Shown piece after piece: positions 3,431 to 10,689 of a DNA stretch of 45,140 nucleotides. The notes beneath the pieces were generated by a model. It was not told where the DNA came from. It ran no database searches and saw only the letters and a program-made list of their open reading frames with translations. Position numbers and translations under genes: made by a program. How positions within the stretch are numbered: the stretch's first letter is position 1; each line of letters opens with the position of its first letter. The DNA comes from Bacteroidota bacterium (lineage in GTDB: Bacteria > Bacteroidota > Bacteroidia > B-17B0 > Aurantibacillaceae). The stretch lies in contig JANYBY010000061.1 of the NCBI GenBank assembly GCA_025360565.1, forward strand, positions 1-45,140, given 5' to 3'.

Positions 3431-4351
3431 CTACTCTTTAATTATTTTTTTAACTACGGAACCGATGCGAATAAAATAAATACCATTTTGCAAATGCGAA
3501 ATGTTGTAGGATGATCTTTCTGAATTTATTTTATCGGTAAATACAATTTGCCCAAAAGTGTTTTCGATTTGGATTTTTAGATTAGAGTAGTATTGATTAT
3601 AAGTTAAACACTCAACATTGATGATGGAATTTGCGGGGTTGGGGAAAATTTTGAGGCTTTGGACAGGATTGCTTTCTTCTTTTATCCCAATAATTCCATC
3701 CGGGCAAGAATTTGAGTTACCGGCAGTGCATATTGGAAATGCTAACAATGAAGAGGTCATTATTGATACATAATTGGGTAAACATGTAAATGGATTGTTA
3801 TTTATATTAAAGCCACACATATATTCTGGAAAAGTAGGGAAACATGAAATATTATTACGATTGCATACCAGACCCGCAAGATAATTTGGCAACGCTGGAA
3901 GATATGTTAATTGATTATAAGCGCAATTCAAACTCTGAAGTGAATTTGGTAGGATAGGAAGGCTAATTAAATTATTGTAAGAACACGCTAAAGATTTAAG
4001 TGAACTTGGTAAAATAGGAAGACTGATTAAAGAGTTATTATAACAGTTTAAATATTGAAGCGAATTTGGTAAAACCGGTAAACTAGTTAAAGAATTCCAT
4101 GGACAATTTAACTGATCGAGTGAAGTAAAGTACTGCACCCCTTCAAGGCTTGTGATGGATTGAGAGGAAACGTCTAATATTTGAGTTGTTGTAACCAATG
4201 TGTTTGTTATGTCTAATGACCATCCGCTCATTGCTGAAGGAAATGTATTTTGCAGATAGACCATAAAATAAATATCAGGAATCAGAACATACGTTTGCGC
4301 GATGGTCGGTTTAAAAAAAAACAATAGAAAAAGAAGAATGAATTTTTTCAT
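3431..4351 (-). CDS. Secreted leucine-rich-repeat protein with a T9SS C-terminal sorting domain
   Basis: Repeats such as LPNSLQYLNCYNNSLISLPILPSSLKSLACSYNNLISLP; C-terminal FPNPANSIINVEC...LQNGIYFIRIGSVVKKIIKE. Confidence 0.85.
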   Translation of the reverse strand: MKKFILLFLLFFFKPTIAQTYVLIPDIYFMVYLQNTFPSAMSGWSLDITNTLVTTTQILDVSSQSITSLEGVQYFTSLDQLNCPWNSLTSLPVLPNSLQYLNCYNNSLISLPILPSSLKSLACSYNNLISLPILPNSLQSLNCAYNQLTYLPALPNYLAGLVCNRNNISCFPTFPEYMCGFNINNNPFTCLPNYVSIMTSSLLAFPICTAGNSNSCPDGIIGIKEESNPVQSLKIFPNPANSIINVECLTYNQYYSNLKIQIENTFGQIVFTDKINSERSSYNISHLQNGIYFIRIGSVVKKIIKE

Positions 4352-4698: not shown

Positions 4699-6255
4699 TT
4701 ACTTCGCGTATCCCGTTGCCCTCGTTTCTCTTATCACCGTAACTTTTACTTGTCCGGGATAAGTCATTTCGGTTTGGATACGTTGAGAAATATTAAATGC
4801 CAACTCTTCAGTTTGTTTATCGCTTACTTTATCGCTCGATACAATTACGCGAACTTCACGGCCCGCCTGAATAGCATACGTTTTTTCAACGCCTTCGTAA
4901 CTTAACGCTAATGCTTCCAGGTCTTTTAAACGCTTCATATACTGCTCGGCAACTTCACGGCGAGCGCCAGGCCTTGCACCGCTAATGGCATCACAAACCT
5001 GAATGATGGGCGAATACAAACTGGTCATTTCAATCTCGTCGTGGTGAGCACCAATAGCATTTACAACTTCAGGTTTTTCTTTGTATTGTTCTGCCAATTT
5101 CATTCCCAATAATGCGTGTGGCAATTCAGGTTCGTTATCGGGTACTTTTCCAATATCATGTAATAGTCCTGCACGTTTTGCTACTTTAGGATTTAAGCCC
5201 ATTTCACTTGCCATTATGCCACAAAGGTTTGCTACCTCGCGACTGTGCTGTAATAAATTTTGTCCGTAAGATGAACGGTATTTCATACGGCCCACCATAC
5301 GAATTAATTCGGGATGTAAACCGTGAATGCCAAGATCAATACATGTTCTTTTTCCTGTTTCAATAATTTCTTCATCGAGCATCTTCTTGGTTTTTTCAAC
5401 CACCTCTTCAATACGAGCGGGGTGAATACGACCATCGGTTACTAATTGATGTAAAGCCAAACGACAAATTTCTCTGCGGATAGAATCAAAACAAGATAAT
5501 GTGATGGCATCAGGCGTATCATCTACAATTATCTCAACACCGGTAGCGGCCTCTAGGGCACGAATGTTTCGACCTTCGCGCCCAATGATCCTTCCTTTAG
5601 TTTCATCGCCTTCAATATGAAAAACAGAAATTGAATTTTCAATAGCTACTTCGGTGGCAACGCGCTGTATGGTTTGTATCACAATTTTTTTAGCTTCTTT
5701 GCTGGCCGATATTTTAGCCTCTTCCATAATATCTTTTATGTGAGCCATGGCAGCAGTTTTGGCTTCATTTTTTATAGATTCTACTAATTGAACCTTGGCA
5801 TCTTCGGCCTTCAACCCGCTTATTTTTTCAAGCATTTCAACTTGTTTACGGTGTCCTTTTTCTACTTCTTCCTGACGTTGCCTGTAAATTTCTATTTGTT
5901 GTGTTGCCTGGCTTTTAAGGTCTTCGGCTTCTTTATGTTTACGGTTATTGTCCTCAATTTTTTTGTTGAGGTCGCCTTCTTTTTGTTTTAAGCGATTTTC
6001 GGTTTGGGCAATGTGGTTATTTTTTTCGGTAACACTTTTATCGTGTTCGGCCTTTAACTGAAGAAATTTTTCTTTTGCCTGGAGTATTTTTTCCTGTTTA
6101 GTGGCTTCTGCTTTTACCTCTGCCTCCTTAATTAAGTTTTCTTTTTCCTTTTTAGCGCCTTTGTTTAATTTGCTGCCGGCAAGAATAAAGCCCGCTATAA
6201 TTCCTAAAATAAGTGCTCCACCGCCCGCAATCAGTGCTATTGTAATAATGTTCAT
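4699..6255 (-). CDS. rny: Ribonuclease Y
   Basis: 518 aa: N-terminal TM helix, long coiled coil, KH region ([41 protein letters not shown]), HD domain ([23 protein letters not shown]). Confidence 0.98.
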
Positions 6256-6300: not shown

Positions 6301-6349
6301 AAAAAAACGCACAACATTTACGCGGTTTAACCGTATAAATCCTGTGCGT
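6301..6349 (-). terminator. Intrinsic terminator of the zapA-rny intergenic RNA
   Basis: Minus strand ACGCACAGGATTTATACGGTTAAACCGCGTAAATGTTGTGCGT followed by TTTTTTT; outer stem ACGCACA/TGTGCGT with inner ATTTA/TAAAT and CGGT/ACCG pairs. Confidence 0.7.
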
Positions 6350-6420
6350 GAGACCCGATCCGCCGAGGCGGTTTATCGGACAAGCAAACGTTAATGGTTC
6401 GGTTAATTCCTCACCACAAG
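6301..6420 (-). ncRNA. ssrS: Structured RNA between zapA and rny; candidate 6S-like (SsrS / 6S-Flavo) RNA
   Basis: Minus strand: CTTGTGGTGAG (6420-6410) pairs with CTCACGCACAGG (6352-6341) in an 11-bp stem with one bulged G; inside are a large asymmetric loop and hairpin CCGATAAACCGCCTCGGCGGATCGG; then hairpin ACGCACA..TGTGCGT plus a T tract. No convincing coding content. The 6S assignment rests on shape and zapA adjacency, not on a covariance model hit. Confidence 0.65.
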
Positions 6421-6734: not shown

Positions 6735-6752
6735 TTAAAGAGGGCGTTAAAA

Positions 6753-9305
6753 TTAAGCACTTAACAACGCTATGCACTTATCAATTTCACGCACCAAATC
6801 GTTTATTTGTTTCTTCATTTGAGGTTTTTCTGTATCCCCGCCTGAATTAGATGCTAATATAACATTCTTCCTGTGATTATTCAAATCTGTAACATTAATA
6901 TTCTCACTATCAACCTGTTGCGATAAATTGCTAACCACATCATTCATTTTTAACAGCTGATCGGCCATTAATCCCTTCTCATTCAATAATCCAAATCTTT
7001 CTTCATTCAAAGATTCAATCTGTTGCAATAAGGTATCAATGTATTCTTTTTGTTTCGTTGATCTGGCTTCGTTTCTTACTAAAGCCACTTCAGTTTCTAA
7101 CCCTTTTATTTCGGCATTTAATTGACTTACTGTAGAATTTAAAGTACCGATGGTATTTTGCAATACATTTATTTCGGCCATCAGGTTATTTTTTTCGGTG
7201 CTTAGTATATCGTAATTATGTTGCAAAGCGGTTAATTGCTCACTTGAGTTGGCTGAACTTAACATTTGAATTTTTAAGTCCTCGATCTCGGCTTTTAACT
7301 GTGTAATTTCTTCAGTCATTGCCGCGTTGTTGGCTTCCAAATTTGTTACTTCAAAATTCTTCGAACTTAATAACGCTTTTAATTCATCAACTCGTCCTGC
7401 GCTTTGAGTGGTTGTTTCTTCTAGTTCAGTTTTTAATAGTGTAATTTCAGCTTCGTGCGCTTCAACTTTATCAGATGCAAGATCTATTTCGTTAATTAAA
7501 TTGGAATTTTCTGCCAGTAATTTTTGAAACTCTACATTTTGACTTTCAATTTGCAAAGTGGTAGTTGCGGTGATCTCGGCGCTTAATGCTTCAAAAGCAA
7601 TTTCTTTTTCGGTAAGTGTAGTTTTAAGTGCCGTTATTTCGTTTTGAAGTTCGTTTGTTTTAGCTTCAATAGTTTGTGATAGCGAATTTTCGGTGTCTGT
7701 TTTATAAGCGGAAAAAGCCAATTCTTTTTCAGAAACAGAAGCGTGCAACACATTTATTTCTGAATTTAAATTCTGAATAGATAACAAAGCGCTTTCTAAC
7801 TCAGTAGTTTTTGCTTCAATGGTTGATTCGGCAGTGGCTAAAGTATTATTAGTATTTTCAACAACAGAACCCAGGTTTTGAATTTCGTTGTTCAATGTTT
7901 CAATTTGAGCGTTCAATTCGTTTACTTGTTCAGATGATGATAGAGCTGAAGTTTGTTTAAAGCCTTCAAATTCAGAAGTAACAGTGTTTAATTTTTCAGT
8001 TTCTGATTTTAACAATGCATCAAGGCTTGTTAACTGACTATTAATAGCATCAATATTGGTAGTTTGAGCAGTTATTTGCGCGCTTAATTCGTTTATCTGA
8101 TTTTTAAAAGCCTCATTTTCTGATTGAACTTTTGTAAACTCTTCGGTCAGCTTTGAATTTTGATCGGTTGAATGAATTAAGGTATTTGAAAGTTTAGCTT
8201 CGTAATCGTTTTTTAAAGTTTCAATTTCGGATTGAAAACCTTCTTTTAAGGATTTGGTTTCTTCTATTGAAGATTCTCTTAGATCGTTTAACTCTTTTGT
8301 GTATTCGCCAACAATTTTTTGTTCTTTGTTCGAGAATTCCTGCGTTAACGCATCTAAGTGCGAAGTTAAATTATTGGTTAAAGTATTACGTTGCTCTTCT
8401 AATTCTAATTTTAAAGTGGAGATCTCGGTTTTGTATGTAAACTCAAGCGCTTCAATTTTTTGAGTATAGCTTTCTTCAAGATTGCTGATAGCAGAGTTGT
8501 GTGCTTTGGTTAAAGCTGCAATCTCGGTTTGCTGTGCCAATGTTAAGGAAGTGATTTCGTTTTCTTTAGCTTGAGTTAACGAAGTGATCTCGTTTTCTTT
8601 GGCTTGGGTTAAAGAAGTAATCTCACCTATGTGCTGATTTTTTGTGGCAGTAAGTTCGGCACTTGTTTCGGATGTAATCTTTTGAATTTGCGAAGTGTAT
8701 TCGGTTTTCAAAAAAGTAATTTCCTGTTGCTGTGCGCTTTTAAGGGCGTACACTTCCTGATTGTGTTTTTGCGATACAGCTTCTTCCTTATCAGCCCAAC
8801 CTGCGCTCAATTCGTTAACACGGTTTTCAAACTCTTCTTTTAAACCAATTTCTTTATAATGAATATTCGAACGCAATTCGCTTATTTCCGCTGAGTGTGC
8901 CTGTTTAGTTGACTCAAGCTCTTGACTCGCTTCAGACTTAAGGCTCTCAATTTTTTGTTCGTATAATTCCGCGATCGAATTCAATTCGGTTCTTAATGAA
9001 TCAATTTCAATCAGGCGAGCATCCACTTCTTCTTGTTTAGCGTGCAATTGATCTTTAATGGTGCCGCGTAATTCTTTAAAAGCAGCCAATTCACCTTTGT
9101 AATTGGTGTTGTCGCGTTCGGTAACAGTTAACTTTGTGTTTAAAACATCAATTGTTACCTGAAGGCGTTTGCAATCTTCGTCGCGCAAGATAAGTTGGTT
9201 ACGGTAATCGCTTAATGAGCGTTTTAGCGCAGTAAATTCCTTACGTAACGTTATATCGTTATCTAAAACTTGTTGCAATTCTGTTTTTAAATTTTCAGCA
9301 TTCAT
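6753..9305 (-). CDS. Very large coiled-coil protein upstream of zapA; possible expanded ZapA partner
   Basis: 850 aa of almost continuous coiled coil; C-terminal MKKQINDLVREIDKCIALLSA resembles the end of a short Bacteroidota protein encoded beside zapA (from memory). Confidence 0.85.
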   Translation of the reverse strand: MNAENLKTELQQVLDNDITLRKEFTALKRSLSDYRNQLILRDEDCKRLQVTIDVLNTKLTVTERDNTNYKGELAAFKELRGTIKDQLHAKQEEVDARLIEIDSLRTELNSIAELYEQKIESLKSEASQELESTKQAHSAEISELRSNIHYKEIGLKEEFENRVNELSAGWADKEEAVSQKHNQEVYALKSAQQQEITFLKTEYTSQIQKITSETSAELTATKNQHIGEITSLTQAKENEITSLTQAKENEITSLTLAQQTEIAALTKAHNSAISNLEESYTQKIEALEFTYKTEISTLKLELEEQRNTLTNNLTSHLDALTQEFSNKEQKIVGEYTKELNDLRESSIEETKSLKEGFQSEIETLKNDYEAKLSNTLIHSTDQNSKLTEEFTKVQSENEAFKNQINELSAQITAQTTNIDAINSQLTSLDALLKSETEKLNTVTSEFEGFKQTSALSSSEQVNELNAQIETLNNEIQNLGSVVENTNNTLATAESTIEAKTTELESALLSIQNLNSEINVLHASVSEKELAFSAYKTDTENSLSQTIEAKTNELQNEITALKTTLTEKEIAFEALSAEITATTTLQIESQNVEFQKLLAENSNLINEIDLASDKVEAHEAEITLLKTELEETTTQSAGRVDELKALLSSKNFEVTNLEANNAAMTEEITQLKAEIEDLKIQMLSSANSSEQLTALQHNYDILSTEKNNLMAEINVLQNTIGTLNSTVSQLNAEIKGLETEVALVRNEARSTKQKEYIDTLLQQIESLNEERFGLLNEKGLMADQLLKMNDVVSNLSQQVDSENINVTDLNNHRKNVILASNSGGDTEKPQMKKQINDLVREIDKCIALLSA
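8548..8624. repeat. 33-bp in-frame tandem repeat within the coiled-coil gene
   Basis: gaagtgatttcgttttctttagcttgagttaac / gaagtgatctcgttttctttggcttgggttaaa / gaagtaatctc; encodes the 11-aa unit EITSLTQAKEN. Confidence 0.85.
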
Positions 9306-9825: not shown

Positions 9826-10689
9826 ATGAGACAGCTTAAAATAACCAAATCGATAACCAACCGCGAAAGTGCTTCATTAGATAAATATCTTCAGGAAATT
9901 GGACGTGAGGAACTTATAACGGCCGAAGAAGAGGTAGTTTTAGCAAAAAAAATTAAAGATGGCGATCAATCTGCCCTAGAAAAATTAACCCGCGCTAATC
10001 TGCGTTTTGTGGTTTCGGTGGCAAAGCAATATCAAAATCAGGGTTTAAGTTTACCCGATCTTATTAACGAAGGAAATTTAGGTTTGATAAAAGCGGCAAA
10101 ACGTTTTGATGAGACCCGTGGATTTAAATTTATTTCTTATGCAGTATGGTGGATCCGTCAAAGTATTTTACAAGCTTTGGCTGAACAAAGCCGTATTGTG
10201 CGTTTACCTTTAAATCAAGTTGGTTCATTAAATAAAATAAATAAAGCTTACAGTAAATTGGAGCAGGAATTTGAGCGCGAGCCAAGTGCCGAAGAGTTAG
10301 CCGATATTTTAGATCTGCCTATAGATAAAGTTAGCGATACCATGAAAGTGAGCGGACGCCATGTAAGTATGGATGCCCCATTTGCAAATGGTGAAGAAAG
10401 TAGTTTATTGGATGTGTTGGTAAATTTAGATTCGCCTAAAGCCGATACAGGTTTAATGAACGAAAGTTTAAGCAAAGAAATTGACCGCGCATTAAGCACA
10501 TTAACCGAAAGAGAACGCGACGTAGTAAAATTATTTTTCGGAATTGGATTGAACCACGGTTTAACCTTAGAAGAAATTGGCGATAAATTTGATCTTACCC
10601 GCGAACGTGTACGTCAGATAAAAGAAAAAGCGATCCGTCGTTTACGCCACAGTAGCAGAAGCAAATTATTACAACAATATTTGGGCTAA
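9826..10689 (+). CDS. rpoD: Primary RNA polymerase sigma factor (RpoD/SigA)
   Basis: 287 aa: [98 protein letters not shown]. Confidence 0.97.

Follow-up and report, generated by a model that had tools for sequence, protein, structure and literature searches.

In Caulobacter crescentus, the gene encoding the short protein ZauP adjoins zapA. Known links between the Z-ring and the chromosome are limited to two systems, MatP–ZapB–ZapA and ZapT–ZauP–ZapA (PMC7858052). In each, a coiled-coil ZapA partner (ZapB of E. coli, ZauP of Caulobacter) joins the Z-ring to a protein on the terminus DNA, MatP or ZapT, respectively (PMC4388696, PMC7858052, PMC7188993). ZauP itself has no affinity for FtsZ, and acts within the ZapT–ZauP–ZapA chain that reaches the replication terminus (PMC7858052, PMC7188993). 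ZapB is a fully coiled-coil protein that self-polymerises into bundles; FtsZ and ZapB are offset by 37 nm in E. coli, and MatP lies about 30 nm further in (PMC4388696). Division-linked coiled-coil rods also occur in Actinobacteria, where FilP and Scy have heptads expanded by hendecads and vary largely in length (PMC9858780).

How does the present locus compare with these systems? The window, by which we mean the whole analysed stretch of 45,140 nucleotides from a Bacteroidota bacterium (GCA_025360565.1, contig JANYBY010000061.1), contains a zapA gene directly preceded, on the same strand, by a gene for a very long coiled-coil protein, hereafter called the giant (Table 1). A preliminary description had reported an 850-residue, nearly uninterrupted coiled coil ending 18 bp before zapA, and this is borne out by the open reading frame call, the presence of a single proline (Pro828), the periodicity, and an AlphaFold model that is nearly all helix. 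The stop codon of the giant ORF and zapA share a reading frame, and the protein ends with MKKQINDLVREIDKCIALLSA. Its two cysteines, Cys45 and Cys844, lie one at each conserved end. The gene is present in a single copy: searches of its own genome with the tail and with the head each returned one match, and no paralogue was found.

Table 1. Features of the rod gene and its neighbours, in window coordinates
Feature	Position	Strand	Evidence
Putative giant ZapA-partner coiled-coil protein, 850 aa	6753..9305	(-)	ORF from ATG
zapA, 102 aa	6426..6734	(-)	PF05164, E 1.5e-13, exceeds Pfam cut-off
rny (RNase Y), conserved downstream neighbour and tree marker	4699..6255	(-)	TIGR03319, E 1.1e-188
Probable intrinsic terminator past zapA, CGCACA...TGTGCG-TTTTTTT	6308..6355	(-)	Recurs in relatives
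Conserved N-terminal head, residues 1–100, LKxELQQVLDxDxxLRKEFxxLKRSLSDYRNQLIxRDEDCKRLQ..., including Cys45	9006..9305	(-)	Column identity
Hendecad segment of rod, residues ~101–370, best period 3.62–3.69	8196..9005	(-)	Windowed Fourier analysis
Mainly heptad segment of rod, residues ~376–760, period about 3.5	7026..8180	(-)	Windowed Fourier analysis
Private 44-aa (4 x 11) insertion in hendecad segment	8547..8678	(-)	Pairwise alignments with nearest relatives, alignment gaps
Private 40-aa insertion in heptad segment, residues ~545–584	7554..7673	(-)	Pairwise alignments
C-terminal domain, residues 762–850, homologous to whole short zapA-upstream protein	6756..7022	(-)	hmmsearch, hhalign
C-terminal tail helix, residues 827–850, class-invariant E, D, Cys (C844)	6756..6827	(-)	Invariant columns, model

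The CGCACAAA...TTTGTGCGTTTTTT hairpin between zapA and rny recurs in most genus-mates. The wide retention of this terminator-like hairpin after zapA points to a two-gene transcription unit of the rod gene and zapA, apart from rny. The stem at 6308–6324 was picked up by a terminator scan, whose count of hits was not above that of shuffled sequences. No Rfam match to 6S or another known RNA was found between zapA and rny; the conserved element there is terminator-like. The spacer between the rod gene and zapA (window 6735–6752, TAACGCCCTCTTTAA) is near-identical through most of the genus, and may serve zapA as a translation signal or coupling element. A primary-type sigma-70 factor of 287 aa that lacks a long region 1.1 (9826–10689, plus strand) is encoded divergently to the rod gene, on the far side of an AT-rich intergenic region of ~520 bp. 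Positions 3431–4351 on the minus strand encode a 306-aa leucine-rich-repeat-like protein, the C-terminal stretch of which we take to resemble a type IX secretion sorting domain. The giant has no PHROGs match, and a phage origin was discarded.

The giant is composed of a head, a rod, and a C-terminal domain. In windowed Fourier analysis, the hydrophobic periodicity of 3.5 or 3.67 residues is strong over most of the protein, and in most places it exceeds the 95–99% level of shuffled windows. As judged from these periods, the rod has two parts, a hendecad segment followed by a mainly heptad one; within residues 131–320, self-identity is 26% at a lag of 11 and 22% at a lag of 22. Two stretches are the most conserved, and the head (80–96% mean column identity per block) is one of them, while most of the middle lies at 26–73%. 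The head is itself helical without a globular fold in the AlphaFold model, and no DNA-binding or membrane-binding motif was seen in it. No recognisable domain was found in the giant with Pfam and TIGR-type models, the matches being generic coiled coils under the cut-offs; those to the eukaryotic proteins FBF1, ATG16, and CENP-F were rejected on this ground. A relation to SMC or Rad50 was likewise rejected, and the SMC-like function raised in the preliminary description is not supported, since SMC_prok_B scores 53 bits against a cut-off of 567, in the central coil only, and no ATPase domain is found in Pfam.

The AlphaFold model, based on 14 relatives, contains a near-continuous helix from residue 3 to 800 with four short breaks, a short helix at 805–819, and the tail helix at 827–849; it is a monomer model of moderate confidence (pLDDT 69, pTM 0.20), silent on the oligomer state and the straightness of the rod. 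A flexible, Gly-containing linker precedes the tail helix and sets it apart as a separate helix. A rise of 0.15 nm per residue over ~800 helical residues would give a rod length of about 115–120 nm. In E. coli, two proteins bridge the FtsZ–ZapB offset of 37 nm and the further 30 nm or so to MatP; one giant rod could span this gap of ~67 nm. When the tail was fused to ZapA in one read-through chain, the AlphaFold model had low confidence (pLDDT 48) and gave no reliable contact, and the PDB relatives of the tail are generic coils only.

Both ZauP and the giant are coiled coils, and we liken them by description; the giants are set apart by their length, 415–911 aa across the order, by their hendecad segment, and by a novel head. 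ZapB has 81 residues (PDB 2jee), as compared to the 850 of the giant. The Pfam ZapB model PF06005 matches neither the giant nor its tail, and its best score against the short proteins described below is 22 bits, under the cut-off of 31.5. The giant resembles FilP and Scy in its rod extended by hendecad repeats. However, these proteins have a DivIVA-like head, whereas the giant lacks a DivIVA match in Pfam (matches to E 0.1), and the resemblance would be convergence.

About 300 genomes of the same class, belonging to other families, encode a protein of ~90–110 aa upstream of zapA that ends with KINELVREIDKCIALLN. In all 20 of the family representatives outside the order whose locus was read, a gene for 89–108 aa lies upstream of zapA, and nearly all of the products have a KINELVREIDKCIALLN-like end. 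The family is present in 339 of 396 class genomes; outside the order, its length is about 90–180 residues from stop to stop among the roughly 290 genomes listed, with few exceptions. The giant has the family position, directly upstream of zapA on the same strand, and the family motif [IL]-N-x-[LM]-[VIL]-x-E-[IV]-D-x-C-[IL] at its C-terminus, in which E, D, and C are invariant across 15 families; in size it is a long variant, at 850 aa against about 90–110 aa. The preliminary proposal that its C-terminus is homologous to small zapA-adjacent proteins is upheld by this shared tail motif and by profile searches. A profile made from 16 short proteins alone matches the C-terminal ~80–90 residues of 33/33 giants (E 1e-11 to 1e-14), and that of the window giant at residues 762–849 (hmmsearch, E 9.5e-13), while hhalign of the short family with the giant C-terminal profiles gives 98.8% for the crown clade and 99.5% for the other profile. 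By profile, motif, and gene order, the C-terminal domain and the short protein are orthologous. ZapA was found in 20/20 tested carriers of the short protein and was absent in 8/20 genomes without a detected one; among the rest of these 20, at least two have a short ORF at the locus that is too diverged for the profile. The short protein has no named Pfam family, and in the literature searched, with subscription journals outside its scope, no paper on a Bacteroidota ZapA partner of this kind was found. The class-wide short protein, with its gene position, its tail motif, and its coiled-coil character, makes a good candidate for a ZapB/ZauP-type role, and so does the giant, for that role with a long arm.

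The giant form fills one monophyletic order of uncultured Bacteroidota, comprising one family with 10 genera and 87 genomes, of which 80 have a match. Every giant frame in the order that is uncut by a contig end measures 415–911 aa, as compared to ~95 aa elsewhere. Short frames in six genomes (G010, G020, G031, G445, G452, and G456) are not real exceptions: four start near the contig start, and two reach the contig end. Close relatives carry the same giant rather than an unrelated protein: at the loci read among the genus-mates, the ORF ends 13–20 bp before zapA and is 540–889 aa long where complete, and its head and tail are nearly invariant. All relatives of the order with an uncut locus, except for one zapA-less genus, retain the ORF, its tail, and its position, and therefore the giant ORF is not a product of chance. 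In the RNase Y tree, the order with giants forms one side of a branch with an SH-aLRT support of 97. The rods of the early-branching genera (g26, g206, and g207) are almost purely heptad and 415–561 aa long, and their head has the sequence EDLSNRxSLQExRRNxFL. In the crown clade, the hendecad block is present and the lengths are mostly 640–911 aa, apart from two shorter members of 540 and 564 aa.

The lineage-specific expansion suggested earlier was thereby found: expansion to a giant is specific to this order, and another family shows a second, more modest lengthening. The latter is a ~401-aa version before zapA in two genomes of genus g146 (family f11; L158:915-2120 and L159:701-1906), and is a smaller independent expansion. 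One g14 genome, G091, has a 202-aa version with internal repeats (L160:1196-1804). The coil has therefore been lengthened on more than one occasion, and farthest in the giant order.

The length of the rod changes in register. Among 35 indels of at least 5 aa between nearest relatives, 17 have a length divisible by 11 and 12 a length divisible by 7, as counted from alignments within repeats, where alignment is uncertain. Lengths divisible by 11 make up 15 of the 20 indels in the N-terminal half, and lengths divisible by 7 make up 10 of the 15 in the C-terminal half; the binomial p-values of 2e-9 and 2e-3, respectively, assume independent events, an assumption that holds only approximately. Indels between close relatives thus appear, from these alignments, to follow the local period of the rod. 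A 33-bp tandem DNA repeat at 8542–8624 (2.5 copies, 88%) overlaps the private 44-aa insertion of the window giant, and points to duplication of 33-bp units as the likely mechanism.

The genus that lacks zapA, g205, is nested inside the long-rod clade of the RNase Y tree. In its two genomes with the locus intact on the contig, the rod gene (L153:5679-7697 and L154:5364-7547, encoding rods of 672 and 727 aa) lies directly before rny, and zapA is missing; no PF05164 match over the cut-off was found in the genus, and ftsZ is present. The g205 rods retain the LDAxRKxTIFA stretch. In contrast to this retention, the tail KKQINDLVREIDKCIALLSA has become LNSVNDLNTQLNQILNEKLS and IQSVNELNTQLTTLFNEKLN, with the class-invariant E, D, and C all changed, in a comparison made by eye in ungapped register, where MAFFT puts small gaps. 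This joint loss of motif and zapA is most simply read as marking the tail as the ZapA-docking site, which would have been freed from selection when zapA was lost, the rod being kept by another function; this reading is drawn from two genomes, the other two of the genus being fragmentary. As the rod has survived in a genus devoid of ZapA, it must have some task besides ZapA docking.

Based on these comparisons, we propose, as the explanation that is probably right, that the giant is the ortholog of the short zapA-upstream coil, enlarged into a tether or cross-linker of the Z-ring that docks on ZapA by its tail. In one order, the short protein would have been enlarged into a long, probably parallel dimeric rod. 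The C-terminal tail helix, on its flexible linker, would dock on ZapA and hence on the Z-ring. The rod would then carry the conserved head to a distant second partner, most likely the nucleoid, as in ZapB–MatP and ZauP–ZapT, or another copy of the rod, and the giant would thereby tether or cross-link the division ring over a long distance. By analogy with the known systems, contact of the head with the nucleoid would be the most attractive option, and head-to-head cross-linking its main rival. A tentative extension is that the giant may serve as a division-site ruler: a ~115-nm rod bound to the Z-ring via ZapA at one end and to a second partner at the other, whose length evolves in 11- and 7-residue units, with natural variants of about 60–135 nm in the order, and which in one genus was freed from ZapA and functions in its absence.

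Several other explanations have to be weighed against this tether. The giant might be unrelated to ZapA, with its C-terminal likeness and synteny reflecting coincidental coiled-coil similarity, as coiled coils do yield spurious profile matches, e.g., to SMC, FBF1, and ATG16. However, the identity in the tail is motif-specific, including the invariant E, D, and C, and synteny holds in all of the genus-mates with the locus read. Moreover, shuffled or reversed giants are absent from the best 60 rows of the search with the short-protein profile, and the inner coil segments of giants reach at most 17 bits, as compared to 40–50 for the C-terminus. Coincidence is accordingly very improbable.

Rods without any chromosome partner could instead join ZapA-bound FtsZ filaments head-to-head or laterally, their length setting the filament spacing or the ring width. 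Such a cross-linker is a possibility that we rate well below the tether in general; E. coli ZapB forms bundles by itself (PMC4388696), and the helical head without globular fold or visible DNA-binding motif is in line with it, but the conservation of the head is far above the need of a mere oligomerising coil, and conservation at both ends is expected for a protein with two different partners. Less likely still is a general, FilP/Scy-like cytoskeletal or polar scaffold with only a secondary tie to ZapA, in which a long coil that already existed acquired the short ZapA-binding protein at its C-terminus. The hendecad-rich rod growing from heptads resembles FilP and Scy (PMC9858780), the rod outlives zapA in g205, and no homology was detected between the giant heads and the N-termini of the short proteins (hhalign probability 2–3%). 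Against this, no other gene with the crown-clade head was found in the 396 class genomes, one weak match (E 1e-4, outside the order) apart; Pfam gives no DivIVA-type match; and the intermediate lengths in the early-branching genera fit the stepwise growth of one gene.

In the reading of the giant as an enlarged ZapA partner, the short coil and its long form would constitute a class-wide candidate for a third family of ZapA partners, which is under no name in Pfam or in the papers searched. One order has stretched this class-wide coil nearly ten-fold with both ends frozen, and the hendecad expansion of the giant parallels that of FilP and Scy in Gram-positives. Two ideas become testable through the natural series of rod lengths and the genus devoid of zapA, namely that ZapA binds at the C-terminal motif, and that the length of the rod matters for the spacing between the ring and the nucleoid.
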